50,438 nucleotides of DNA from a virus: the IMG/VR virus record IMGVR_UViG_3300024518_002307, positions 1 to 50,438 of that record. One strand, 5' to 3'. Of this stretch, positions 8,092-49,426 are shown one piece after another. The position numbers were made by a program, and so were the translations under genes. The notes beneath the pieces were generated by a model. The model was not told the DNA's origin. It was given only the letters and a program-made list of their open reading frames with translations, and did no database searches. Each line of letters opens with the position of its first letter. Position 1 is the first letter of the stretch.

Positions 8092-8430
8092 CTATTCCTC
8101 TTCTTTTATGATCACATTAACGTCTTCATCGTTAATCAACTTGTACTCTTTCTCAGTGTGTGGATCTAAGATAAACTTGCCTGCATACCTTGAATACCAG
8201 ACTCGATCCCCTACTTTAGCCCACGGCTTGCCGTTGCGCTCTTGTCCGTTGTCATCCATCATTCGGAAAGCTTTCCACGCATCGGGACCGATAGCGATTA
8301 TCGTTCCTATCTGCTGTCCTGCTTCCTCTAGCCTCTCGTCAAAAGAAACTAGCTGTAATCCCCAATCTGTTTCCTTCTCTACTTTATCCGGCTCAATAAT
8401 CAGTCGGTGCCCGCACGGTATCAGTGCCAT
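8092..8430 (-). CDS. GroES/Cpn10-like co-chaperonin
   Basis: 112 residues. The order GHRLIIEPDK, GTIIAIGPDAW, GKPWAKVGDRVWYSRYAG and YKLINDEDVNVII matches the Cpn10 fold (N-terminal strand, mobile loop, valine-rich core, closing strand). The 20-residue mobile loop region (ETDWGLQLVSFDERLEEAG) would contact GroEL. It may replace or help host GroES in folding the coat protein encoded just downstream. The ATG at 8430 overlaps the previous gene by 38 bp. Annotation as a GroES homologue rests on motif order, not on a search. Confidence 0.75.
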   Translation of the reverse strand: MALIPCGHRLIIEPDKVEKETDWGLQLVSFDERLEEAGQQIGTIIAIGPDAWKAFRMMDDNGQERNGKPWAKVGDRVWYSRYAGKFILDPHTEKEYKLINDEDVNVIIKEEE

Positions 8431-15568: not shown

Positions 15569-15868
15569 CTATAACGTTCCTTTAAAACTCAACAACGCTT
15601 GGGCAAGCAATGAACCTCGGAGATCTACTTCTTTCTCGTCGTGTTCGTCATTCCCTATTCCCATTGAACGCTGTACGGCATGCTCTAGCTCGTGACAAAA
15701 CGTCTGGAACTTCCGTGTCGGAGGTAACGTAGAACGTATAAGTATCTCGTTACGTTGTGCCACCCACGCCCCGTGTGCTCCTAGATCATCCAGAGTATCG
15801 TCTTTATCCTGCCTTACCGTTATGGTGTGACATACTATGTTAAACTTCTTTGGTATCTCGAACACCAT
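15569..15868 (-). CDS. HExxH zinc-protease-like protein
   Basis: 99 residues from the ATG at 15868, chosen for the AGAGGAAAAG ribosome site; upstream TTG and other codons are part of a promoter. The motif FCHELEHAVQ has the HExxH zinc-binding core, and a downstream E/D-rich helix (DEKEVDLRGSLLAQALL) could supply the third ligand, as in the ImmA/IrrE and related minimal metallopeptidases. Target unknown. It could act on a host regulator or in lysis. Confidence 0.6.
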   Translation of the reverse strand: MVFEIPKKFNIVCHTITVRQDKDDTLDDLGAHGAWVAQRNEILIRSTLPPTRKFQTFCHELEHAVQRSMGIGNDEHDEKEVDLRGSLLAQALLSFKGTL

Positions 15869-15881
15869 TAACTCTTTTCCT

Positions 15882-15910
15882 CTTATACCACACTCAGATC
15901 TAAATGTCAA
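15882..15910 (-). promoter_or_regulatory. Sigma70 promoter
   Basis: TTGACA (15910-15905), 17-bp spacer, TATAAG (15887-15882) on the minus strand. The start point would be near 15875, only about 7 bases before the ATG at 15868, so the message for the HExxH protein would be almost leaderless and its ribosome site would overlap the start point. Two hairpins lie just upstream. Confidence 0.6.
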
Positions 15911-16349: not shown

Positions 16350-18917
16350 CTATGGCAAGTACCACCTACCATATAGTGCGCCGGGTTCCTTGGGATTTTG
16401 CTCTATAATGAGCTGTTCCCGGAGCAGCATAGCTGCGGTAAAAATTAGCGACGAATTGGTTTCGTGTATGGTGAATTCACACTGTCCTGTGTTTAATCGG
16501 GGATGTATCATCCACCTACGCCAAAACGGGGGTGTACGCTGAGAAGCGTGGCTAACAAAATCAACCGTACCCCCGAGCGGGTTTGGAGACTCCCAGACGT
16601 CGTTACGAAAGGCCGAATAAATCGGACCACCTGTAATTCCAAAAAGAACAATGCCGGGAACTGGATCATCGATATCATCGATGTCGGAAGGCTTGTGCTG
16701 AATCTCTACAGGATAGGCGTACCCAATCCCTGTTGCCCACGATAAACCCATCGGATTCGCACCCAAGACATAATTAGCATTCGAAATCGCAGCATCACGG
16801 TACTTCGCATCTCCGGTCATCTCGTACGCAATGAAGAGCGAACGGTTGTAGTTCGTTAACACGGTATTACCCCAAGCCGCAAAGAAATCCTGCCGTCTAG
16901 GCCACGTCATGGCATAGGGTGCGTCATCTACATGTGCAACAAGCGCATCTGCGTCATTGATAAACCAAGTCGTCCATGTCGCAGCTAAAGAAGGTAACTC
17001 TTCGGCTGCTTCTATGATGCTGAAGAAAATCCACGGAGACCAGTCCTTATGCGTAAACTTCCACTCGAATGGAAAATGAGATGTGGACTCCAACTCTAGA
17101 ACACTTGGGGCATCGGTTAAGTATGACGTATCCTTGGTCAACAGGTAGAGCCGCAGCTTGGCGTGCATCAGGTACGGCGTGATGTATTCGTCCAATTCTG
17201 TCCACTCGATTGTATATGGAGTACCGGAACCTCGATTCTCGGCCGCGTGAATGATTGTCGCTCCCAGGGAGTTGGCAGGATTGTTCCCGAACGCGTAGGC
17301 GTCTTCTGCCGAGGCTCGATACAGTGCCGCGTCTGCAGCGTCGTAGGGGGCGACTAGCTGCGCGTACTGAGCTGCAGCAGCGGCAAATATAAGTGAAGTC
17401 CATCGAGTGCGCTGTGCGAACGCATAGTCAACTCTACCATTACCAGTTTCCGCATCGATGTCTGGATGCGTCCACGTCTCCAACATCCCTGAGACGCCAC
17501 CGTCTGCCTCCTGACTGAGCCGCCACAACTCCAATCCGTGGCGAACCTCATTCAAGATGTCGGGAATCCCATCTCCCGACTCTGGAATGTTGAGCTGCAT
17601 GTCCTGCAAACTTGGATTAAGGGCGAAGGCATGTAACAAATCGAAGACGATCGTATAATGGCCCTGGTTGGAGTCCCAATCAGCAGCATCGTGCCATCCT
17701 CCAGAAGCCTCAGGGGTGCTCCTCGTATAGTCGATGGAGGCACCGATGACATCGAATCTGTCGTAGCCGGGAGGGTTACCCGAATGCGGAGGAAACTGAA
17801 CGTGCTCTGATTCGTAGAACAAAGGCCCCCTCACCGCTTTACGACGTGGCCAATTCGTTCGCTCCTCCTCAATGGGCACGCCTGCCCGTTGCAGGTAGAG
17901 CCCCCGTGCCATCGTATGAAAAACAGGTGCATATGCCGACGCATCATGCCGAAACGGCCACGACCTTCCGATCCCCGGAACGCTGATAAAAAAGACACCC
18001 TCCTGGGTCATCGAAGTAAAGTCTGCGACGTAGACATCCTCGCCATACATCATATCAGTGTTTGTCGGCGGCTCAAACTGAGGATTGGCTTCAAGTAGTG
18101 ATATGTCACCGGTGAACACCACCTCGTGATTCGTCGCGTCTATCACCTCGAACGTGGTGGCGTGCGAAAGATCCAAGGGTCCAAACTGGTACAAGTATGC
18201 ACCCAGATACGCACGCTTCTGCCCAGCATCGGGCAAATATCCGACCTGGTTTACCTTGATGGCGCGCGACACAGTGTACAGACGGTCGAATAGAAAAGTG
18301 ACGCTCTTGTCTTCGTTCAAGGCAATCGTGTACGTCGCCCCGTCTTGCATTGGGGTTGGAAGTTCCAAATAGGCGTAGACGTTATAGTTCGCGGTAAATG
18401 TCCCACCATATTTCCTGTCATCACCTTCTGAAACATAGAGACGGTCTGCTAAAGTCGGCGCCACTGGCGCCACATAATTGTCGTCATCGACGCTCGTGAC
18501 CGTGTAGTGGCTGGTCTGACTCAACAAAAGCTCACCGACATCGAGACGAGCCTGTGCGATGTGCTCATCCCGCGTCGTCCACCTGCGGTTGTAGGCAGCC
18601 CAATTTGGGCTGGAGGTCTCCCGAGTACTGAGCCACATTTCGATATCCTGCACAAACAATCCATCAGAGGCGTTATCGATTTCGGCAACAAGTTCATCGA
18701 GCTTGTTCACAACAACGATGACCCAGCGCTCGTCTAAGACGAGCAGTTGCTCAACGCCGTTGAGAGTCGGCTCATGGAAATGAGGGACAGGGAACGCTAT
18801 TGGTGGGGGCGTAGGTGGTTGTACTGGTGGACTGATCACAATTAAGGAACAGGCATAAGAAGCAACAACAAGCAGAACAGATACAACTATATACTTGATT
18901 AAATCTCTACATCTCAT
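16350..18917 (-). CDS. Exported glycoside hydrolase family 9 (cellulase-type) enzyme
   Basis: 855 residues. Residues 1-23 form an export signal ending in Cys (LLVVASYAC), possibly a lipoprotein signal, followed by a Pro-rich linker. Residues ~219-320 match the Ig-like cellulase N-domain (IKVNQVGYLPDAGQKRA). The catalytic (alpha/alpha)6 domain shows GGWHDAADWD (406-415; family GGWxDAGD with the catalytic Asp pair D410/D413), GDGIPDILNEV (448-458), GANPMGLSWATGIG (719-732), IHPR (804-807) and CEFTIHETNSS with the likely acid Glu814. It should cleave beta-1,4-glucan or a related polysaccharide. The start is supported by AGGAAA upstream. It sits between TerS and the lysis block and looks richer in G+C than its neighbours, suggesting recent gain. 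Confidence 0.85.
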   Translation of the reverse strand: MRCRDLIKYIVVSVLLVVASYACSLIVISPPVQPPTPPPIAFPVPHFHEPTLNGVEQLLVLDERWVIVVVNKLDELVAEIDNASDGLFVQDIEMWLSTRETSSPNWAAYNRRWTTRDEHIAQARLDVGELLLSQTSHYTVTSVDDDNYVAPVAPTLADRLYVSEGDDRKYGGTFTANYNVYAYLELPTPMQDGATYTIALNEDKSVTFLFDRLYTVSRAIKVNQVGYLPDAGQKRAYLGAYLYQFGPLDLSHATTFEVIDATNHEVVFTGDISLLEANPQFEPPTNTDMMYGEDVYVADFTSMTQEGVFFISVPGIGRSWPFRHDASAYAPVFHTMARGLYLQRAGVPIEEERTNWPRRKAVRGPLFYESEHVQFPPHSGNPPGYDRFDVIGASIDYTRSTPEASGGWHDAADWDSNQGHYTIVFDLLHAFALNPSLQDMQLNIPESGDGIPDILNEVRHGLELWRLSQEADGGVSGMLETWTHPDIDAETGNGRVDYAFAQRTRWTSLIFAAAAAQYAQLVAPYDAADAALYRASAEDAYAFGNNPANSLGATIIHAAENRGSGTPYTIEWTELDEYITPYLMHAKLRLYLLTKDTSYLTDAPSVLELESTSHFPFEWKFTHKDWSPWIFFSIIEAAEELPSLAATWTTWFINDADALVAHVDDAPYAMTWPRRQDFFAAWGNTVLTNYNRSLFIAYEMTGDAKYRDAAISNANYVLGANPMGLSWATGIGYAYPVEIQHKPSDIDDIDDPVPGIVLFGITGGPIYSAFRNDVWESPNPLGGTVDFVSHASQRTPPFWRRWMIHPRLNTGQCEFTIHETNSSLIFTAAMLLREQLIIEQNPKEPGALYGRWYLP

Positions 18918-18919
18918 CT

Positions 18920-19528
18920 CTAGTTTCCTTCATCATTCACAACCCCAATTCCATCTACAACCGTTGCCTCGCCTACAATAATAGGTTTCTTAGCCTTGAT
19001 ATCCTTTGACAGTTCCTTGAACGCATCCGTGAGTTCCTTCATCTTGGTCGGAGTATCCGTCTTACCGCTTATGCTCGTCGGATCTCCTCTGATCAGATTA
19101 CGCTTATCATACAGTATTCCGAGTGTTACTGTCAACTCCCTTAGCGACAGCGGCTTGTGAGCAAACCCATCCTCGGTACTCTCATCCGGCATGGGTATGC
19201 CGTCTACGTAGATAATCTCTCCGAGAGCGATTCTATCGCTTACCTTCTCGATAGCTGTGTGAATGATGTTTGTCATCACACCATCCAGCTCTTCCTGCTT
19301 CTCTCGTCGGCAAGCCTCTGCTGCCTCGTCCCACCAATCCGATTGCTTCCAGCAACGGATTTTATCAGCGGATACGCCACAAAGCCTCTCTGCCTGGAAG
19401 GATGTACCCGTTAGTACAAATGCCATCACTGCGGCTATCTTCTGCTCTGGAGTGTACGTACTCCGGGGATGGTGAAGAGAGTCCAAATCCATGTTCTTGA
19501 GCAGATTACTCTGCTTCTTCTTAGGCAT
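18920..19528 (-). CDS. terS: Terminase small subunit
   Basis: 202 residues. After a basic start, residues 23-70 form a helix-turn-helix of the small-terminase type (EQKIAAVMAFVLTGTSFQAE, LCGVSADKIRCWKQSDWWDE). A helical oligomerisation part follows (IHTAIEKVSDRIALGE, LSLRELTVTLGILYDKRN) and a Lys-rich end. It would recognise the packaging site and recruit TerL. Its ATG overlaps the end of the 53-residue gene upstream by 8 bp. Separation from terL by 6.7 kb is noteworthy. Confidence 0.8.
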   Translation of the reverse strand: MPKKKQSNLLKNMDLDSLHHPRSTYTPEQKIAAVMAFVLTGTSFQAERLCGVSADKIRCWKQSDWWDEAAEACRREKQEELDGVMTNIIHTAIEKVSDRIALGEIIYVDGIPMPDESTEDGFAHKPLSLRELTVTLGILYDKRNLIRGDPTSISGKTDTPTKMKELTDAFKELSKDIKAKKPIIVGEATVVDGIGVVNDEGN

Positions 19529-19682
19529 TCGTAGCTTCTGCCCTTTCTTTTAGTCGGGTCAGAATCTGGAGTACAACCTTTGTTGGTATTTCGTCAGTTC
19601 CGCTTTCGCTCACTGCCTTAATCGCTGCTTCTATTGCCTGCTCAGCACTTAGATTAGACCACACACCTTCTCTTATCTTCAT
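19521..19682 (-). CDS. 53-residue hypothetical protein upstream of TerS
   Basis: Good ribosome site (AGAGGAAA, nine bases before the ATG). Helical and charged (SAEQAIEAAIKAVSE, VVLQILTRLKERAEA). It overlaps terS by 8 bp and the upstream 38-residue gene by one base (TAATG), so the three are probably translated together from the promoter at 19.9 kb. No family recognised. Confidence 0.6.
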   Translation of the reverse strand: MKIREGVWSNLSAEQAIEAAIKAVSESGTDEIPTKVVLQILTRLKERAEATNA

Positions 19683-19798
19683 TAGGCTTTTTCCTCTTTC
19701 AATCGGGTACTCTTCTTAAAAACTCTATGTTCTACTGTACCTCCAACACTTATGACCCGTGTGTTGTCGGTACCGAGTACCTTAACAGATTTTACCAT
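19682..19798 (-). CDS. 38-residue first ORF of the late transcript
   Basis: Starts at the only ATG after an in-frame stop and ends in TAATG shared with the next gene. It is beta-prone and basic (VKVLGTDNTRVISVGG, HRVFKKSTRLKEEKA). The ribosome site is weak (AGAGTGA). It is the first poss ible product of the leftward promoter at 19.9 kb, with a leader of about 95 nt holding a TACTCC-TGAG-GGAGTA hairpin. Confidence 0.45.
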   Translation of the reverse strand: MVKSVKVLGTDNTRVISVGGTVEHRVFKKSTRLKEEKA

Positions 19799-19850
19799 AA
19801 AAGTAAAATCACTCTGTTCGAATACTCCTTCGGTCGGTTTCGGCGTTGCC

Positions 19851-19866
19851 TACTCCCTCAGGAGTA
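19851..19866 (-). promoter_or_regulatory. Leader hairpin
   Basis: TACTCC and GGAGTA form a 6-bp stem with a 4-nt loop in the leader of the leftward transcript, about 50 nt before the first ORF. GGAG in its arm resembles a ribosome site that would be hidden in the stem. Confidence 0.35.
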
Positions 19867-19898
19867 TGTACATAGCCACTCTTAAGAGCAGACAGTAC

Positions 19899-19927
19899 CT
19901 TATACTACATTTCTCGTATCAAGTCAA
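19899..19927 (-). promoter_or_regulatory. Leftward sigma70 promoter for the terminase/late block
   Basis: TTGACT (19927-19922), 17-bp spacer, TATAAG (19904-19899) on the minus strand; the start point would be near 19892. It is the only clear promoter upstream of the small ORFs, terS and the GH9 gene. A perfect TGTGA-N6-TCACA operator is centred about 60 bp upstream of the start point, the position used by class I CRP activation. Confidence 0.75.
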
Positions 19928-19944
19928 CGACTTTCTTCTCGAAA

Positions 19945-19960
19945 TGTGAAGTACCTCACA
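19945..19960. promoter_or_regulatory. Perfect CRP-type operator (TGTGA-N6-TCACA)
   Basis: The sequence AAATGTGAAGTACCTCACAA contains both CRP half-sites without mismatch and with the standard 6-bp spacer, with a flanking A-run as in the consensus. Centre 19952.5. It lies between two divergent promoters: about -60.5 from the leftward start and about -75 from the rightward start. Binding by the host cAMP receptor protein is inferred; a phage-coded regulator could use the same palindrome. Confidence 0.6.
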
Positions 19961-19990
19961 ATAACAAGGCATATCTGTACTCTAAAACCC

Positions 19991-20021
19991 TTGACACCCT
20001 CTATACCCTAGAGGGTATATT
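19991..20021 (+). promoter_or_regulatory. Rightward sigma70-like promoter with overlapping palindromic operators
   Basis: TTGACA (19991-19996) and TATATT (20016-20021) are separated by 19 bp, two more than ideal. The spacer is filled by CCCTCTA-TACCC-TAGAGGG (19997-20015) and by the interlocked palindrome TATACCCT-AG-AGGGTATA. GGGTATAT is repeated downstream. A long spacer plus an operator within it suggests a promoter that needs a bound activator (MerR-type geometry) or is blocked by a repressor. Transcription would run into the structured region. Confidence 0.6.
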
Positions 20022-20069
20022 CGGGTATATATGTACTAAATCTAGCCGAAGGCACCTCAGTTTGCCGCG

Positions 20070-20091
20070 TATATTAGAGTTTGCTAATATA
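20070..20091. repeat. A+T-rich inverted repeat
   Basis: TATATTAG and CTAATATA, 8-bp perfect arms around 6 bp, just downstream of the rightward promoter. It could be a repressor operator, an origin element or an RNA hairpin. Confidence 0.5.
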
Positions 20092-20113
20092 CTAAATTAT
20101 GTATATACCTCTG

Positions 20114-20311
20114 GGGCGGGAGCAAGTAGGTGCTCCGCGCCCGTCCTCCGTGCTCGCCGCCATACAAGCGGCTGCCTGCACGGAGTAGCGCTAGGGCGCT
20201 GTGTTAGGGCCTACGCTGTAGGGTGGGAACTAATATACGGCTTCACTTCGTTCCAGGCGTATGCCGTGCTGCGCACGGGGTTACGATCCCAGATTGGGTA
20301 GGATCATACCC
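20114..20311 (+). ncRNA. Candidate structured noncoding RNA: train of G+C-rich hairpins
   Basis: Within about 200 nt the plus strand contains at least six stems: GGGCG..CGCCC with GAGCA/TGCTC inside (20114-20142); CTCCGTGC/GCACGGAG enclosing GCCGC/GCGGC (20146-20185); AGCGC-TAGG-GCGCT (20187-20200); CCTAC-GCT-GTAGG (20210-20222); CCGTGC-TGC-GCACGG (20264-20278); GGGTA/TACCC (20296-20311). No start with a ribosome site or coding pattern is seen. The second stem recurs at 20848. The strand is assigned from the promoter at 19991; a DNA role (origin, packaging site) is the alternative. Confidence 0.5.
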
Positions 20312-20700
20312 ATAATGAGCATTTGAATAAGTGTACTTGTTTTTCAGGATTTTTCAAAAAAATAAAAATTGTGTGCAAGTATGTTCTGGTGGCTTCCCCC
20401 CCAATTCTTCTCTTCTTCTCCACTTTGGGGAAGGGGGCGTAGGGTCTCTAAAAGGAAAGCATTCTTTCTGCGAACCATTATCATCTGTACTTGTGTTGCA
20501 GTGCAGCATCCCCTCTGTCTACATGAGAATGAATCGCATGTACCTACCCCATGCATGCGTGCCTGATTGCAGGCTGTACCAAGGTAGGCAGGGGTAAGTG
20601 TACTTAGTACACTATTAGGTTGATGAGCGTTGAGGAGAGGGGGAGAGACGCACATAGAATAAACTAATGCCTATCATCAATATCATTAATAGACAATAAG
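20312..20700. other. Gene-free stretch with minor hairpins
   Basis: No open frame here has a ribosome site or a plausible product. Visible elements are an A-rich tract (20356-20370), CTTCCCC/GGGGAAG arms flanking a C/T-rich run (about 20390-20432), GCCTG-ATTG-CAGGC (about 20560), and AGTGTAC-TTA-GTACACT (20597-20613). The role is unclear. With its flanks it may form part of a replication or packaging origin. Confidence 0.4.
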
Positions 20701-20737
20701 TGTCAGGATGTGACACAACAGCTTGTCACAATGTGAC
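20701..20737. repeat. Array of TGTCA/TGACA half-sites
   Basis: TGTCA (20701-20705), TGACA (20711-20715), TGTCA (20724-20728) and TGTGAC (20732-20737) alternate in orientation; the last two form the perfect palindrome GTCACA-A-TGTGAC. The array lies about 90-130 bp upstream of the predicted sigma54 start point, the usual place for enhancer-binding activators, but could be an iteron-like replication site. Confidence 0.5.
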
Positions 20738-20754
20738 CATTTGTGTCCGTTGCG

Positions 20755-20776
20755 CATACACAACAGCATACACAAC
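20755..20776 (+). repeat. Direct repeat CATACACAAC, 12-bp period
   Basis: Two exact copies (20755-20764 and 20767-20776) next to the half-site array. Regularly spaced direct repeats on one helix face are typical of regulator or initiator binding. Confidence 0.5.
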
Positions 20777-20802
20777 GCACGTTCTGATTACCTTTCCCGA
20801 AC

Positions 20803-20818
20803 TGGCACGGGGAATGCT
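20803..20818 (+). promoter_or_regulatory. Sigma54 (RpoN)-type promoter
   Basis: TGGCACG-GGGA-ATGCT matches the -24/-12 consensus TGGCACG-N4-TTGCW with one mismatch and the strict GG-N10-GC spacing (GG 20804-20805, GC 20816-20817). The start point would be near 20829, ahead of the second copy of the conserved stem-loop and the plus-strand operon that begins at 20914. No sigma70 promoter of similar quality was found for this operon. Confidence 0.55.
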
Positions 20819-20847
20819 TGGATATTAAGTGAGACGAAACAAACACT

Positions 20848-20881
20848 CTCCATGCTCGCCGCAGAGCGGCTGTGCGTGGAG
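20848..20881 (+). promoter_or_regulatory. Leader stem-loop, second copy of the conserved element
   Basis: CTCCATGC-TC-GCCGC-AGA-GCGGC-TGT-GCGTGGAG. It has the same layout as 20146-20185 (outer 8-bp stem, TC bulge, inner GCCGC/GCGGC) but a shorter loop. One outer pair changes from G-C to A-T on both sides and another from U-A to U-G, so pairing is kept. It lies 32 nt before the ATG at 20914; GTCC just after it can pair with the GGAC of the ribosome site. Confidence 0.55.
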
Positions 20882-20913
20882 TCCGCGCTACCGCACGGAA
20901 AGGACAAACATAA

Positions 20914-21081
20914 ATGACCTATGCTCGAGAACGTGACGCACTACTCGATAGCCCGTGCACACACGATAGCCTTAAACAGGCAATCCGACTGCTCGACACT
21001 GTCGATTGCGTAGACGCAGCAATGAATGCCGATATACTGGCTCAACTGATGAAACGTCGAGTAGACGAGGCTTTCGCATGA
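20914..21081 (+). CDS. 55-residue first gene of the rightward operon
   Basis: AAGGA lies ten bases before the ATG. Helical, acidic product (DSLKQAIRLLDTVDCVDAAM, LAQLMKRRVDEAFA) with no motif. The stop overlaps the next start (ATGA). Expression may be controlled by the leader stem-loop. Confidence 0.6.
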   Translation: MTYARERDALLDSPCTHDSLKQAIRLLDTVDCVDAAMNADILAQLMKRRVDEAFA

Positions 21082-22374: not shown

Positions 22375-22478
22375 TAGTCACAGCTATCACAATCTGCGCC
22401 TTCACCGTCGTAATGCTCAGCGGCGAAATCATTAAATACTATCGGCCGGGATTACTTCGACCTGCCAGCAAGTTATAA
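22371..22478 (+). CDS. 35-residue membrane peptide, last gene of the operon
   Basis: One hydrophobic span (IVTAITICAFTVVMLSG) followed by a short basic tail. ATGA overlap with the upstream gene and a terminator 25 bp downstream support it as a real gene. Confidence 0.45.
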   Translation: MIVTAITICAFTVVMLSGEIIKYYRPGLLRPASKL

Positions 22479-22502
22479 CCCTTCCTTTCCTCCTCCTTTT
22501 AG

Positions 22503-22525
22503 CCCCATTCTGATATGGGGTTTTT
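22503..22525 (+). terminator. Intrinsic terminator of the 20.9-22.5 kb operon
   Basis: CCCCAT-TCTGAT-ATGGGG followed by TTTTT and CTTT. A 6-bp G+C-rich stem and U-run in the correct orientation. Confidence 0.8.
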
Positions 22526-22648
22526 CTTTGCCTATCTTTCCCCAATTCGATCAGATCGTAGCCTTAACACCTAATTCTTGCTCGTCTAAGCTCGCCTGAG
22601 CACTTATCTCGACCTACCCCTACCCTTACCATTGCCCAAATCACAGGC

Positions 22649-22675
22649 AAAAAGAGCCCCGCTCAAGGCGGGGCT
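22649..22675 (-). terminator. Intrinsic terminator of the leftward 25.4-22.7 kb operon
   Basis: On the minus strand AGCCCCGC-CTTGA-GCGGGGCT (8-bp perfect stem) is followed by CTTTTT. Together with the rightward terminator 120 bp away it closes two convergent operons. The bases between them hold nothing else notable. Confidence 0.8.
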
Positions 22676-22700
22676 AAGGTTGGTGCGCTTGTCGAAACTG

Positions 22701-22880
22701 TTAACTGTTGTAAGATTCCGCGCAGCTATCTTCGCAGAATCGTTGGCCTTTCTCTTCTGGCTTAAATTTGGAACCACACCATTTACACTCTACGCTGTAA
22801 TCCTGCCAAGCTATCGGACATCCGTGCTCGTGGCAGTAAATGCCGTTTATCATTAAAGCTTCACATTGTGTGCACATCAT
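22701..22880 (-). CDS. Zinc-finger protein
   Basis: 59 residues starting directly after the upstream stop (TAAATG, GGAG five bases before). Cys/His pairs: CTQC, CHEHGC, CKWCG and C-x4-C near the end, in the order of a small phage family with the KWCGxxFKPEEKGQ segment. Probably two zinc sites; function unknown. It is the last gene before a terminator. Confidence 0.6.
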   Translation of the reverse strand: MMCTQCEALMINGIYCHEHGCPIAWQDYSVECKWCGSKFKPEEKGQRFCEDSCAESYNS

Positions 22881-23087
22881 TTACTCCATTACTGTTCTGC
22901 GACTGGTGTTACAGTACAACGGTTGCTCGTGTACCCGTTCATACCCTTCGAACCATACACCAGGGCACAGAGTATTCGGATGTGAGCAGTGAGCTTGTGC
23001 TTGTTCCAGGGTTAACCCGCGATGCATTACTTTCCGACGCGCCAGACCACCATGCTTGTAAAAGGAATATCTGATTATCTGATACAT
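22881..23087 (-). CDS. Conserved small phage protein (GLTLEQAQAHC family)
   Basis: 68 residues with MYQIIRYSFYKHG at the start, RGLTLEQAQAHCSHPNT in the middle and WFEGYE near the end, a pattern common to a small family in environmental phages. Function unknown. The stop is immediately followed by the next start. Confidence 0.65.
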   Translation of the reverse strand: MYQIIRYSFYKHGGLARRKVMHRGLTLEQAQAHCSHPNTLCPGVWFEGYERVHEQPLYCNTSRRTVME

Positions 23088-23371
23088 TATTCTATATCCT
23101 CCAATAGAGCTTGCGCAATCTCATACCAATTTACCTCATGCAGCGCACCATTGAATATATCAGCGAAAAAGGAAGCTTGATCAGGCATCCATTCTTCCGC
23201 TAATTGTTCAAAATACTGCTCTATCTCTTTGCCCAAATCATAAGCATTCGCACCATTGGCCGCTTGATGCTGTGCCATTTCCTGGAAATAGTGATAACTG
23301 CCTTCATCGTTATCCATCCACAGCTTGCAGTTCCACGTTTCGTAATTAGTCCAGCCGTTGTATCTACTCAT
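23087..23371 (-). CDS. Conserved protein with NGWTNYETWN motif
   Basis: 94 residues from the ATG at 23371 (ATGA overlap). The opening YNGWTNYETWNCKLWMDND is the hallmark of a small family widespread in phages, plasmids and archaea (recalled as DUF7249). The rest is helical and acidic. Function unknown. Confidence 0.7.
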   Translation of the reverse strand: MSRYNGWTNYETWNCKLWMDNDEGSYHYFQEMAQHQAANGANAYDLGKEIEQYFEQLAEEWMPDQASFFADIFNGALHEVNWYEIAQALLEDIE

Positions 23372-23601
23372 TTCCAAGTGTCCATTGGATAAAACTGCAT
23401 ACGATAGACAACAAACTCCCCTTTCCTTTTCATTAACTTATTTTGTTTGTTCATTACGTCGCGTGCTTTCCACGCGGCCTTTTGTGTTGCGTGTGTTTCG
23501 ACAGCACGAGCAAACAGATCATTGAATTTGATAGCGACGATATAATCATCGTTTGCATTGCAAGCATTCTCGTTTATATCAAGTGGCATGTTTATATTCA
23601 T
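23368..23601 (-). CDS. Hypothetical protein
   Basis: 77 residues, mixed alpha/beta, basic middle (KAAWKARDVMNKQNKLMKRK). It sits between the beta-solenoid gene and the NGWTNYETW gene; no motif recognised. Confidence 0.5.
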   Translation of the reverse strand: MNINMPLDINENACNANDDYIVAIKFNDLFARAVETHATQKAAWKARDVMNKQNKLMKRKGEFVVYRMQFYPMDTWK

Positions 23602-23633
23602 ACACTGGTATTCCTTTTTAATAGCAGGGTTAC

Positions 23634-24338
23634 TTACAAGCCTAAAGCTCCAAGAACTTTTATTAGCTTTTCGAAATCATTCCAATTACCACCCATATTC
23701 TCAATTTGCTCGCGTGTAAACGCTCGCCATTTTTTTGCGGTATATTGCTTACATCCTATCGATACATACTTATCCCCTACAATTACAGTATAAAAAGGAC
23801 CAGTGATAACAATGGGGGATTTTTTGCAGTTTTCATCCCCAAACACCTCAGCATTCCCAAACACCCGAGCATCCCCAGACACCCGAGCATCCCCATACAC
23901 CCGAGCATTCCCATACACCTCAGCATCCCCAAACACCCAAGCATTCCCAAACACCCGAGCATTCCCATACACCTCAGCATCCCCAAACACCTGAGCATCC
24001 CCAAACACCTCAGCATCCCCAAACACCTGAGCATTCCCAAACACCCGAGCATCCCCATACACCCGAGCATCCCCAAACACCTGAGCATTCCCAAACACCC
24101 GAGCATCCCCATACACCCGAGCATCCCCATACACCCGAGCATTCCCATACACCTCAGCATCCCCAAACACCCAAGCATTCCCACTTTGATTTAAATTGTT
24201 TTCACTTTCGACAAAACCTCCAGTCTCTCCTTTTTTCACTGTACCAAAAGAAATCAAAGCACGAATTCTGTAAAGCGTTTTTGTACCAAAGACAATTTTG
24301 GTTTCACTCGTAAGTTCGTATTTATTAGGTGTATTCAT
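23634..24338 (-). CDS. Left-handed beta-helix (hexapeptide-repeat) protein
   Basis: 234 residues. An N-terminal beta domain ([20 protein letters not shown]) leads into about 18 copies of a six-residue unit of the form V/A-x-G-[DN]-A-x (for example [12 protein letters not shown], residues 54-165), the pattern of a left-handed parallel beta-helix. A C-terminal domain ([18 protein letters not shown]) follows. Phage proteins with the [18 protein letters not shown] opening are common and of unknown function. The repeats make the coding DNA highly repetitive, and copy number probably varies between relatives. Confidence 0.7.
23826..24183 (-). repeat. Tandem 18-bp repeats within the beta-helix gene
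   Basis: About 20 imperfect copies of an 18-bp unit (plus strand CCCAAACACCTGAGCATC-like) encode two turns' worth of hexapeptide motif each. Variation is limited to a few positions (TAC/AAC, CGA/TGA/TCA), so unequal crossing-over is likely. Confidence 0.8.
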
Positions 24339-24628
24339 ATTTTATCCCCTACAAATGTAGATATGAAATGATTAGATGACAGCATTGTTGCCGTGTAGTT
24401 ATCCAGGGAGATAAGGAACGCGGGACAATCCCTTCCGTTAAGTTGTGTGTATTGAGGCAATCGAGCAGTAGCCTGTCTCAGGTTGCTCGGTTCACTTCCG
24501 TATAGATACAAATGAGCAGCGGGATAGACAATACCCGTATAGATCAATGCTCGCGACTGGTTGGTAAGTTGCGGAACATTACTTACCAGAGATAGTGCGA
24601 GTTTTACTTGCTTTTCTAAGTTATCCAT
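24335..24628 (-). CDS. Hypothetical protein
   Basis: 97 residues, soluble, helical N-terminus (LEKQVKLALSLVSNV) and Tyr/Leu-rich middle. It joins the downstream gene by an ATGA overlap. No family recognised. Confidence 0.55.
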   Translation of the reverse strand: MDNLEKQVKLALSLVSNVPQLTNQSRALIYTGIVYPAAHLYLYGSEPSNLRQATARLPQYTQLNGRDCPAFLISLDNYTATMLSSNHFISTFVGDKI

Positions 24629-25349
24629 TATGTGTGGCTCTTACCATGCGCACTAGTCGTGCGTTTTGTTTAGACTCCGCAGCAGACTCCGCAGCAAACT
24701 TCGCAGCAGACCCCGCAGCAGACCTCGTAGCAGACCACGCTGCAGACTCCGCAGCAGACTCCGCAGCAGACCTCGTCGCTGCAGACCACGCTGCAGACCA
24801 CGCAGCAAACTCCGCAGCAAACTCCGCAGCAGACTTCGCAGCAAACTTCGCAGCAGACCACGCAGCAAACTCCGCAGCAGACCACGCAGCAGACTCCGCA
24901 GCAAACTTCGCAGCAGACCACGCAGCAAACTCCGCAGCAGACCACGCAGCAGACTCCGCAGCAAACTTCGCAGCAGACCCCGCAGCAGACTCCGCAGCAA
25001 AATCGCCCCTAAGCCATTGAAGCACTATCGATGGACAATCCCAAGCATCTACAACATCCAACGCACATAACCGCGCAAACTTTCGTAACAACTCCTCACC
25101 ACCGACACGCCATAAAATAGTGCGGTAACCACACACTAATTTATCGTTACCCTTTTCCATAATGGTATCGCAATCAACCCGGCAGATTGTAGAACCGGGT
25201 GCGTATTTCAAAGCATCGATTAATCTTATTGACGCATGTAACCCCGATTCACACATCTTGATATTGCCGTTATAGGCAAGCAATTCCCCATCGGCAGGGA
25301 TAGGGCCACCATTGCGAAGTGTGTCGCCAACAAAATGCCAAGCCTTCAT
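24621..25349 (-). CDS. Conserved phage protein with Ala-rich pentapeptide-like repeats (DUF7666 type)
   Basis: 242 residues. The N-terminal ~110 residues (MKAWHFVGDTLRNGGPIPAD, CESGLHASIRLIDALKYAPG, EELLRKFARLCALDVVDAWD) match a widespread phage domain recalled as DUF7666. The C-terminal half is a long run of five-residue units of the form [FS]AA[EWKG]S (residues ~117-225). Such repeats may form a regular solenoid or helical rod. Function unknown. The DNA is strongly repetitive. Confidence 0.75.
   Translation of the reverse strand: MKAWHFVGDTLRNGGPIPADGELLAYNGNIKMCESGLHASIRLIDALKYAPGSTICRVDCDTIMEKGNDKLVCGYRTILWRVGGEELLRKFARLCALDVVDAWDCPSIVLQWLRGDFAAESAAGSAAKFAAESAAWSAAEFAAWSAAKFAAESAAWSAAEFAAWSAAKFAAKSAAEFAAEFAAWSAAWSAATRSAAESAAESAAWSATRSAAGSAAKFAAESAAESKQNARLVRMVRATHNG
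24674..25005 (-). repeat. Tandem 15-bp repeats within the DUF7666-type gene
   Basis: About 22 copies of a 15-bp unit around GCAGACTCCGCAGCA on the plus strand, with longer 60-bp blocks repeated almost exactly (about 24,835-24,970). The unit length keeps the reading frame, so this is a coding repeat and not a CRISPR array. Confidence 0.8.
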
Positions 25350-47400: not shown

Positions 47401-47799
47401 TTAATTTACTGATCTGCTTACTTCATACCAACTGGTGTTATCAAATACTAGTTGAAGTACTGTATCATCTGCTGATGTAAATGCAGCAGACAGATCAATT
47501 GTATTTGTCGTGTGTCCTGCTGTATCTGTAATTGTTACATTTCCATCTACGAATATGAGAGTAAGGAATTGTCCGTTATCCCCTTCGGTGATAGTAGCTA
47601 TGGTATTACCCCCACCATCTCCCGTTATTGTCATTAGATTAGAAGCGGCTTTAAAAGTTGTAGCGCTTGCTGCTAAGGTGTGTGCTGTATTTTCGTTTTG
47701 TGAATTTAGCCATTCACCTAAGTCGCCTAACCATCTACGCCAGCGCTCCGACCATGCCTCATCGTCGGAAGGTGCTCCACCTGGAAACTTAAGTGCCAT
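47401..47799 (-). CDS. Short tail appendage protein
   Basis: 132 residues. A helical N-terminus with four Trp (DEAWSERWRRWLGDLGEWL) is followed by a beta-rich part ending in TWYEVSRSVN-like strands (FDNTSWYEVSRS), the kind of beta closure seen at ends of fibre trimers. It probably forms an adaptor or a short fibre with the neighbouring gene product. Confidence 0.55.
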   Translation of the reverse strand: MALKFPGGAPSDDEAWSERWRRWLGDLGEWLNSQNENTAHTLAASATTFKAASNLMTITGDGGGNTIATITEGDNGQFLTLIFVDGNVTITDTAGHTTNTIDLSAAFTSADDTVLQLVFDNTSWYEVSRSVN

Positions 47800-47854
47800 T
47801 AAAAGAAGACCCCGTCTCTTTTAAAAATATGGGACGTAGTTTCCATATTAAAAG

Positions 47855-49426
47855 TTAACTTCTGCCTTCGCGTACAAACAGCTCCACAGCTTCTGGTCGG
47901 ATAATATCTGCATTGGAATACAGCAATTCCCAACTACGTCTGTTGAACGAACCGTTCATCTTGATACTAGCCTGTCTCCCAAGGTTGATGCTTCTTGAGT
48001 ACGTAGAGTACGTACTGTGATCTCCATCCGACCATCGTATGGTCGCGTTGTTGGAGTCTGTGTCCGTGAAGTCTCCAATAACCCTAAGCTCCGATACAAA
48101 CTTGCGATTGGATGTACCTCCGTCCTGATGCCCTGTTCTTATCTTGAACTCGATGTTGGTATCCGTACCTGCCGTATCCGAGAAGTAATCCGTAGCTATG
48201 TACGCATCACTGTCTATAAGATATGCCAACTCTCCGTAAGTATCCGTAGGGGTAAGATCATTACTGACAGTAAACAACGCCCCATTAGCCATAAGACCTT
48301 CACCAATTCTTGGTGCGGTTCCTGTGTACAGCGCCCAATCAACCATCGGAAACTCCCCGTTGGCATCTAGCACTGTCATGTTCTCCGTACCCCACGTCAT
48401 CCAGACATTACGGGTAACATCGTATACAAACGACTGTGTAGAATTTATGTCATCTGGAGTAGTGTGTATCGTGAGTATGTAGAACATACGACCATAGGCA
48501 CTAAAGCCACTACCTACCGCGCTATACAAAGTACTGTCTATAAGAACATCTGTAAGAAATGCATCCATGCCATACGGTGATACTTTAGACAGCTTAAAGT
48601 TCTCAAGCTTGTATACTGCCATACCCCCGGAACCATCGGTTCCGACGAACATAGTACGATCTCCACTAGTCCACACACTTTCACTGGACGCACACCCTAT
48701 GGTGTAATAGAGATCTGAGCGACGTTGCAGAGGAGATGCAGGAGAGGCAATAGCTGCGTCGTAGAAAAACTCAAGAGAGTAAGCGCCGAGAAAAGCAATG
48801 TGATCATGGTGCTTAAGTATGTGGGTACCACCATCTACATTCCGCTCTGCGGAAACAAACCCCGTAGATCTCCAGGCAGTAGCATCTCCATTGTCTGAGT
48901 TATAGATCCTACCGTTGGTTGTCCCTACAAACATATACCCGTTAAGAGTAACATTCCCACCACACAACGTTAAAGAAGCTGTAGCTTTCGGAGGAAAGTC
49001 TACATCTGTAATCTCGGTGGGTGTCCCTGTACCACTTATAGTCCACCCTTGATTATTCTCTGAATCCACAAGAGTAACATTTGTGTCCAGCTCTTGTAGA
49101 TGGACTTTCTTAGTACCTCCTCCTATCGTACCCAAGGAAGTATCATAACCAGGGCTATATACCTCGTTACTGTTTACAATGTAACGAGTGTTGCTCGATC
49201 CTTTGTAATACAGTCCACGCCCTTTGGTATTCCCTACAGAAGAATCTGCAGGGTCCATGAACTGATAAACGGAAGGACGTTGTGTTACAAACGTCTTCTT
49301 ATCCGGCTCGGCGTCGTCATCTGCTATGACTCCGTTGTGTACAAACGAAGAAAAGCGAGAGACAGAGCCACTGGCGTGCTCATCGATGTTCATCGCTACC
49401 GCAAGAGGTATGCGTGTCTTAGCCAT
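47855..49426 (-). CDS. Tail hub/stabilisation protein, P22 gp10-like
   Basis: 523 residues, all-beta with repeated Trp/Tyr-rich strands, as in P22-type packaged-DNA stabilisation proteins. Supporting segments are the N-terminal LAVAMNIDEHASGS, VTQRPSVYQF (close to RPG/RPSVY motif of the family), HHDHIAFLGAYSLEFFYDA and the C-terminal LFVREGR. Located after the gp4-like gene, as in P22. It would plug the portal channel and attach fibres. Confidence 0.7.
   Translation of the reverse strand: MAKTRIPLAVAMNIDEHASGSVSRFSSFVHNGVIADDDAEPDKKTFVTQRPSVYQFMDPADSSVGNTKGRGLYYKGSSNTRYIVNSNEVYSPGYDTSLGTIGGGTKKVHLQELDTNVTLVDSENNQGWTISGTGTPTEITDVDFPPKATASLTLCGGNVTLNGYMFVGTTNGRIYNSDNGDATAWRSTGFVSAERNVDGGTHILKHHDHIAFLGAYSLEFFYDAAIASPASPLQRRSDLYYTIGCASSESVWTSGDRTMFVGTDGSGGMAVYKLENFKLSKVSPYGMDAFLTDVLIDSTLYSAVGSGFSAYGRMFYILTIHTTPDDINSTQSFVYDVTRNVWMTWGTENMTVLDANGEFPMVDWALYTGTAPRIGEGLMANGALFTVSNDLTPTDTYGELAYLIDSDAYIATDYFSDTAGTDTNIEFKIRTGHQDGGTSNRKFVSELRVIGDFTDTDSNNATIRWSDGDHSTYSTYSRSINLGRQASIKMNGSFNRRSWELLYSNADIIRPEAVELFVREGRS

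Follow-up and report, generated by a model that had tools for sequence, protein, structure and literature searches.

The window analysed here, a stretch of 50,438 nucleotides of viral DNA, covers nearly an entire phage genome. Its two ends are bridged by contig L085 (99.98% identity over 9.8 kb); according to this join 1188 bases are absent between the end of the window and position 1, and the closed circle would measure about 51.6 kb. Leftward from positions 19799-20913 lie the late genes, including a small-terminase-like gene and those for the large terminase, portal and major capsid proteins. Rightward lie the early genes, encoding primase, a DnaB-like helicase, a family A polymerase, an exonuclease and ribonucleotide reductase. 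The interval itself is a non-coding gap between these divergently transcribed modules, that is, a divergent early/late junction. By capsid identity the nearest named relatives of this phage are Alcaligenes phage vB_Af_QDWS535 (58%) and MW202796 (49%).

Features of the junction and its borders, in window positions:
18920-19528, minus strand: small-terminase-like gene, used as synteny anchor; homologues adjoin the junction in L083, L084 and IMG/VR relatives
19521-19682, minus strand: first clear late-side ORF (53 aa, codon-model gene caller), left border
19682-19798: borderline 38-aa ORF, preceding the 53-aa late-side ORF and finishing at the left edge of the junction
19799-20913, no strand: the divergent gene-free control junction as a whole, largest coding gap, with syntenic junctions in 12 relatives
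19899-19927, minus strand: predicted late-directed sigma70 promoter PL, TTGACT-17-TATAAG, sequence match
19945-19960, no strand: CRP-type core TGTGA-AGTACC-TCACA, between PL and PR
19991-20021, plus strand: predicted early-directed promoter PR, TTGACA-19-TATATT, sequence match
20002-20019, no strand: operator-like palindrome TATACCCTAGAGGGTATA, inside the PR spacer and extending into the -10 element
20025-20108, no strand: A+T-rich inverted repeat with inner hairpin 20069-20092, directly downstream of PR
20114-20142, plus strand: G+C-rich hairpin 1 (region 20110-20190, folding z -3.8 on the plus and -4.5 on the minus strand)
20146-20185, plus strand: G+C-rich hairpin 2 (CTCCGTGC...GCACGGAG), within the same region, with the same z values
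20396-20402, minus strand: run of seven G, unique in the window among runs of seven G or C, lying where the relatives carry their poly-G element (406 bp from the early -35)
20469-20483, no strand: Fur-box-like site TGCGAACCATTATCA, 2 mismatches
20524-20538, no strand: Fur-box-like site TGAGAATGAATCGCA, 2 mismatches
20702-20714, no strand: dyad GTCAGGATGTGAC, possible enhancer site, in 0 of 85 genome tiles
20725-20737, no strand: dyad GTCACAATGTGAC, which repeats the first after 23 bp, in 0 of 85 genome tiles
20754-20776, no strand: direct repeat GCATACACAAC, two copies with a 12-bp period
20803-20818, plus strand: sigma54-like promoter TGGCACGGGGAATGCT, early direction
20848-20881, plus strand: G+C-rich hairpin 3 (z -3.6 on the plus strand), with a 15-nt arm resembling hairpin 2
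20882-20899, plus strand: hairpin 4, directly preceding the ribosome-binding site of the 55-aa early ORF
20914-21081, plus strand: first early-side ORF (55 aa, coding score 8.4, with a ribosome-binding site), right border

The original prediction held that positions 19799-20913 contain no credible gene, and our analysis agrees. With a codon-model gene caller based on codon usage, the longest gap of the window is 19683-20913 (1231 bp, versus 712 bp for the next). ORFs in the interval score about zero or below, the exceptions being the borderline 38-aa ORF at the left edge and a 46-aa ORF (20344-20484) that scores 5.9 and is not preceded by a ribosome-binding site. No homologue of any of these ORFs turned up in the relatives retrieved. 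When the same genome was cut into 85 tiles of equal size, the sigma54-like, CRP, Fur-like, seven-base-run and dyad features were found in none of them, thus the interval is unusual beyond chance. Likewise, it carries four distinct inverted repeats with 8-bp arms, compared with a mean of 0.44 per tile.

Several further genes of this genome deserve mention. An 855-aa protein encoded at 16350-18917 (minus strand), next to the small-terminase-like gene, is cellulase-like, with a Glyco_hydro_9 domain (E 3e-29) and a CelD_N domain behind a lipoprotein-like signal. A GroES-like co-chaperonin gene (8092-8430, minus strand) sits between the portal and capsid genes, as it does in the named relatives, and a weak IrrE/M78 peptidase-like match lies at 15569-15910 (minus strand). 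The rightward early module includes an island of minus-strand genes (23087-25349), among them one for a DUF7666 protein and one for a YdcK beta-solenoid protein; positions 22375-23086 form the coding gap that ranks second in the genome.

Predicted promoters and regulatory sites

A leftward sigma70 promoter, a rightward promoter with an operator in its 19-bp spacer and a CRP-type site had been claimed for the interval, and a match to each lies there. PL reads from 19927 to 19899. In PR the 19-bp spacer is suboptimal; its counterpart in relatives is TTGACA-17-TATAAT-like and stands in the same place. The palindrome in the PR spacer is one of the four inverted repeats with 8-bp arms. Judged by their sequence and by the enrichment of such sites across the clade, PL and PR qualify as predicted outward promoters of the junction.

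The -35 elements of PL and PR are 63 bp apart, with the CRP core in between. This core (TGTGA-N6-TCACA) is the sole perfect one in the 50 kb of the window, and only 0.2% of shuffled versions of the interval contain one. Class I CRP sites are expected at about -61.5 of a promoter, the alternative position being -41.5. The centre of the core, 19952.5, is about 60 bp upstream of the probable PL start, a spacing that suggests a candidate site for CRP regulation of PL. Across the 13 junctions examined CRP cores are not enriched (1 versus 0.6 expected), the one core being that of the window.

Sigma54 promoters were recognised by a -24 GG and a -12 GC with 10 bases between them (consensus TGGCAC-N5-TTGC). 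A sigma54-type promoter had been predicted here, and TGGCACGGGGAATGCT, with one mismatch in 11 scored positions, is the window's single match at the one-mismatch threshold; it is a predicted sigma54-dependent promoter by a consensus that is proteobacterial and may not be the host's. Both dyads lie 66-101 bp upstream of it, where enhancer sites usually lie, making them putative enhancers. Neither the window nor 10 relatives encode an AAA+ sigma54 activator; therefore the activator would have to be supplied by the host. The array of TGTCA half-sites that had been described did not hold as such, since TGTCA alone is not enriched (p 0.2), whereas the two GTCA-N5-TGAC dyads are.

Searching with the 7-1-7 Fur box pattern returned the two 2-mismatch sites in the window, and perfect boxes in the junctions of L084, L108 and L173. 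The direct repeat, described earlier as one of 12 bp, comprises 11 exact bases (GCATACACAAC), and 12 bp is its period.

Junctions in related phages

Similarity searches with the DNA of the interval returned nothing among phage records, and its exact patterns are absent from IMG/VR. Relatives were therefore reached through their proteins: capsid homologues were collected in IMG/VR, and the strand switch upstream of the terminase was then located. The 12 relatives comprise OK172329, MW202796 and 10 IMG/VR contigs, and with the window they make a set of 13 junctions. A divergent gap opens at the switch in every contig where it could be located; it measures 0.76-1.8 kb, or about 2.4 kb in L100, where the stretch contains one predicted ORF. 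The edges of these gaps depend in part on the gene caller, and a few very small annotated ORFs in the L083 and L084 gaps were rejected. The DNA of the relatives' junctions is largely not alignable to the window, which shares a single weak 25-bp match with one of them, and similarity between junctions is patchy.

Together the 13 junctions hold 25 near-consensus sigma70 sites (at least 10/12 matches, 17-bp spacer) versus 2.5-3.75 expected; each junction has at least one, and in most of them the sites stand back to back near the late end. The strict sigma54 pattern occurs eight times versus 0.11-0.17 expected (p 1.9e-11), in 4 of the 13 junctions, the window included; a reversed control pattern occurs once versus 0.26 expected. 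Fur-like boxes (5 versus 0.42 expected, p 8e-5) and exact DnaA boxes (5 versus 0.33 expected, p 2e-5) are enriched as well; twelve patterns were tried, and these two p-values should be weighed accordingly. DnaA boxes lie in 3 of the 13 junctions (L084, L153 and L162), and in that of L173, outside the set. This out-of-sample junction also has one sigma54 site and one perfect and one weaker Fur box. Two others, in L169 and L170, are partly covered and have no sigma54, Fur or DnaA sites in the part available. The set of sites thus varies among relatives. An extreme case is the 0.9-kb junction of L108 (750-1628), where three perfect sigma54-type promoters point toward the early genes and one points the other way, accompanied by a perfect Fur-like box; beside its late sigma70 promoter no early one is recognisable.

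These comparisons support the original prediction of a control hub. In relatives with the same gene order a long gene-free stretch persists between the divergent modules, its promoters follow one scheme, and sites for sigma54, Fur-like proteins and DnaA are overrepresented in it. The combination, which the original prediction did not recognise from described podoviruses, is not unique to this phage; the window has one variant of a junction found across the clade.

Most relatives share a further element, which reads on the strand toward the late genes: G4-6, one to three other bases, G5-9 and AAA(A). It was found in L083, L112, L120, L130, L141, L153, L154, L162, L168-L173 and others. The exact pattern occurs in 12 of 51 records, at one place in each, and in none of 30 control records; where the early -35 was also seen, the two are 294-429 bp apart. 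The tract is followed by AAAACTT, with a T-rich stretch about 50 bp on, at one place per genome. In a leave-one-out test, a profile of the element recovered it as the best match in 16 of the 17 relatives, 15 of them with E <= 0.0025. In the window the best matches of the profile are at noise level and located elsewhere, so the window has at most a degenerate counterpart, and we rejected it as a family member. Four matches to the motif in bacterial genomes, none with phage genes, were taken as chance. We also looked for a promoter directed from the early side toward the tract, as for a mitochondria-like primer; 7 were found versus 7.4 expected, and this candidate was dropped.

Interpretation of the junction

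What we observe at the locus is the absence of genes, the position, the synteny, the promoter pattern and the enrichment of sites. The reading that we favour, with fair confidence, is that the interval is an early/late divergent control junction at which the host's RNA polymerase and regulators act, with an origin probably lying there too. PL would drive the structural operon leftward, and PR the replication operon rightward through an untranslated leader of about 0.9 kb. The CRP-type site between the promoters and the palindrome inside PR could make both adjustable. Near the first early gene, the sigma54-type promoter with its upstream dyads may provide a second rightward start, an arrangement that fits host RpoN and an enhancer-binding protein. 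Host CRP and the enhancer-binding protein, possibly together with a Fur-type regulator, would then set the balance of early and late expression. These roles of CRP, Fur-type and RpoN/enhancer proteins are deduced from proteobacterial consensus sequences, which may not be those of the host. Likewise, we infer the timing of the promoters and the start of replication at the junction. If an origin is present, it would probably open near the A+T-rich tract next to PR, a proposal based on the relatives rather than on the window.

A serious competitor, though somewhat short of an even chance, is that the interval is mainly a replication origin, with an initiator and an opening region, and that the promoters are secondary, as at the primary origin of T7. 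The primase, helicase and polymerase genes lie on the early side, and several relatives (e.g. L083, L112 and L130) have an A+T-rich tract beside the early promoter. Exact DnaA boxes occur in the junctions of L084, L153, L162 and L173, and the poly-G element is conserved in most relatives. The window itself argues otherwise: its junction has no DnaA box with up to one mismatch, no 11-base repeat exceeds two copies in the window with one mismatch allowed, as iterons would, and its A+T-richest 60 bp (0.78) are no richer than elsewhere in the genome. The earlier suggestion of an origin is plausible from the relatives, with their DnaA boxes and A+T-rich tracts, rather than from the window. A search for iterons shared across the clade returned none. 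GC skew in the window tracks gene direction and was left out of the evidence on origins. A search for a single-subunit RNA polymerase gave no match in the window, and since its controls were silent too, it is uninformative.

It is unlikely that the interval encodes a structured noncoding RNA, as had been proposed, whether a large phage RNA of the GOLLD/ROOL kind or a regulatory leader. Folding is strong on both strands: positions 20000-20912 (913 nt) fold better than 20 of 20 shuffles on the plus strand (z -9.3), and 973 nt on the minus strand give z -7.0 (20 shuffles). A long untranslated leader would also lie downstream of PR. However, the two strands fold alike, as expected of inverted-repeat DNA, and several relatives with no alignable sequence have a similar mean folding z. 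Rfam gave no match at its gathering threshold, and the matches below it look like chance. RNAalifold found no consensus pair in 13 aligned leaders, an alignment that is poor and of limited power, so the conserved folding proposed as a check of the RNA locus did not appear.

Of the at least six G+C-rich hairpins claimed, four stand out (20114-20142, 20146-20185, 20848-20881 and 20882-20899; z between -3.6 and -4.5 for whichever strand folds better), whereas 20190-20290, 20385-20445, 20535-20620 and 20690-20760 individually fold no better than shuffles. The common arm of hairpins 2 and 3, which are 702 bp apart, is 93% identical over its 15 nt. The claimed A+T-rich inverted repeat is present at 20069-20092, and its fold is no better than shuffles.

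Slightly less probable again is a packaging (pac/cos) region. The interval adjoins the small-terminase-like gene, and some relatives' contigs end close to the poly-G element; in L168, L171 and L172 the end lies 46-112 bp from the tract, on its early side. These offsets differ, however, other contigs run through, and the join between the window and L085 falls at the ends of the window, away from the junction. A lambda-like lysis/lysogeny switch with phage operators, the decision region of the original prediction, is very improbable despite the divergent promoters and the operator-like palindrome in PR: searches with working controls detected no integrase and no HTH_3 repressor in the window, which lacks 1188 bases of the genome, no repressor gene was recognised beside the junction, and the relatives' junctions carry near-consensus promoters.

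Returning to a control junction for host factors, the host-regulator sites of the relatives suggest that these phages adjust expression, and perhaps the start of replication, to the condition of their host cell. Descriptions of phage control regions usually centre on phage operators, and the literature searched contained no mention of a sigma54 promoter at the early/late junction of a phage. A bolder and speculative proposal is that this clade, which has no recognised lysogeny switch, wires its junction to RpoN/sigma54, CRP, Fur and a CSB 2-like poly-G origin element; the timing of infection and the onset of replication would then respond directly to the nitrogen, carbon and iron status of the host. 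Across the clade, sites for the host's sigma54 RNA polymerase, and probably for Fur, are overrepresented in the control junctions, the CRP core being unique to the window. Should the sites be functional, the length of the latent period or the burst would depend on host nutrition in these environmental phages. Furthermore, the conserved poly-G element offers a small, clear target for origin mapping.

Comparison with known systems

At the T7 primary origin, transcription and an A+T-rich stretch start replication. The junction resembles it in having a promoter that adjoins an A+T-rich tract ahead of replication genes. The predicted promoters here are host sigma70 promoters, whereas T7 uses those of a phage RNA polymerase, and the divergent early/late arrangement is particular to the junction.

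The poly-G element can be compared with human mitochondrial CSB 2, whose layout is G5AG7 (PMC5027508). The relatives' tracts (e.g. G5TG6) have the same layout with a T-rich stretch downstream, a likeness that we offer as analogy only (PMC5027508). In contrast to CSB 2, an early phage transcript would read the C strand, no promoter directed toward a G-rich RNA was found, and the element is unmatched in the window.

Among named phages, vB_Af_QDWS535 (OK172329, junction 47599-48894) shares with the window the order of modules, a gene-poor stretch of about 1.3 kb between divergent modules, ahead of a small-terminase-like gene, a sigma70 consensus promoter and an A+T-rich tract. It differs in having the poly-G element, in having no DNA similarity to the window and in that no sigma54 or Fur-like site was found. 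The junction of MW202796 (an uncultured phage from Manatee Spring, 17979-18920) likewise has a divergent gap with a consensus late promoter, and carries one sigma54-like site, a perfect Fur box and one DnaA box. Unlike in the window, ATATAAGACAT occurs four times there, one tract is very rich in A+T, and there is no CRP core. L108 (3300022221_000002) and L173 (3300042691_008087) share early-direction sigma54 sites with the window, and their Fur-like boxes are perfect. They differ from it in that three perfect sigma54 sites point in the early direction in L108, where the late sigma70 promoter has no recognised early partner, and in that L173 has two DnaA boxes.
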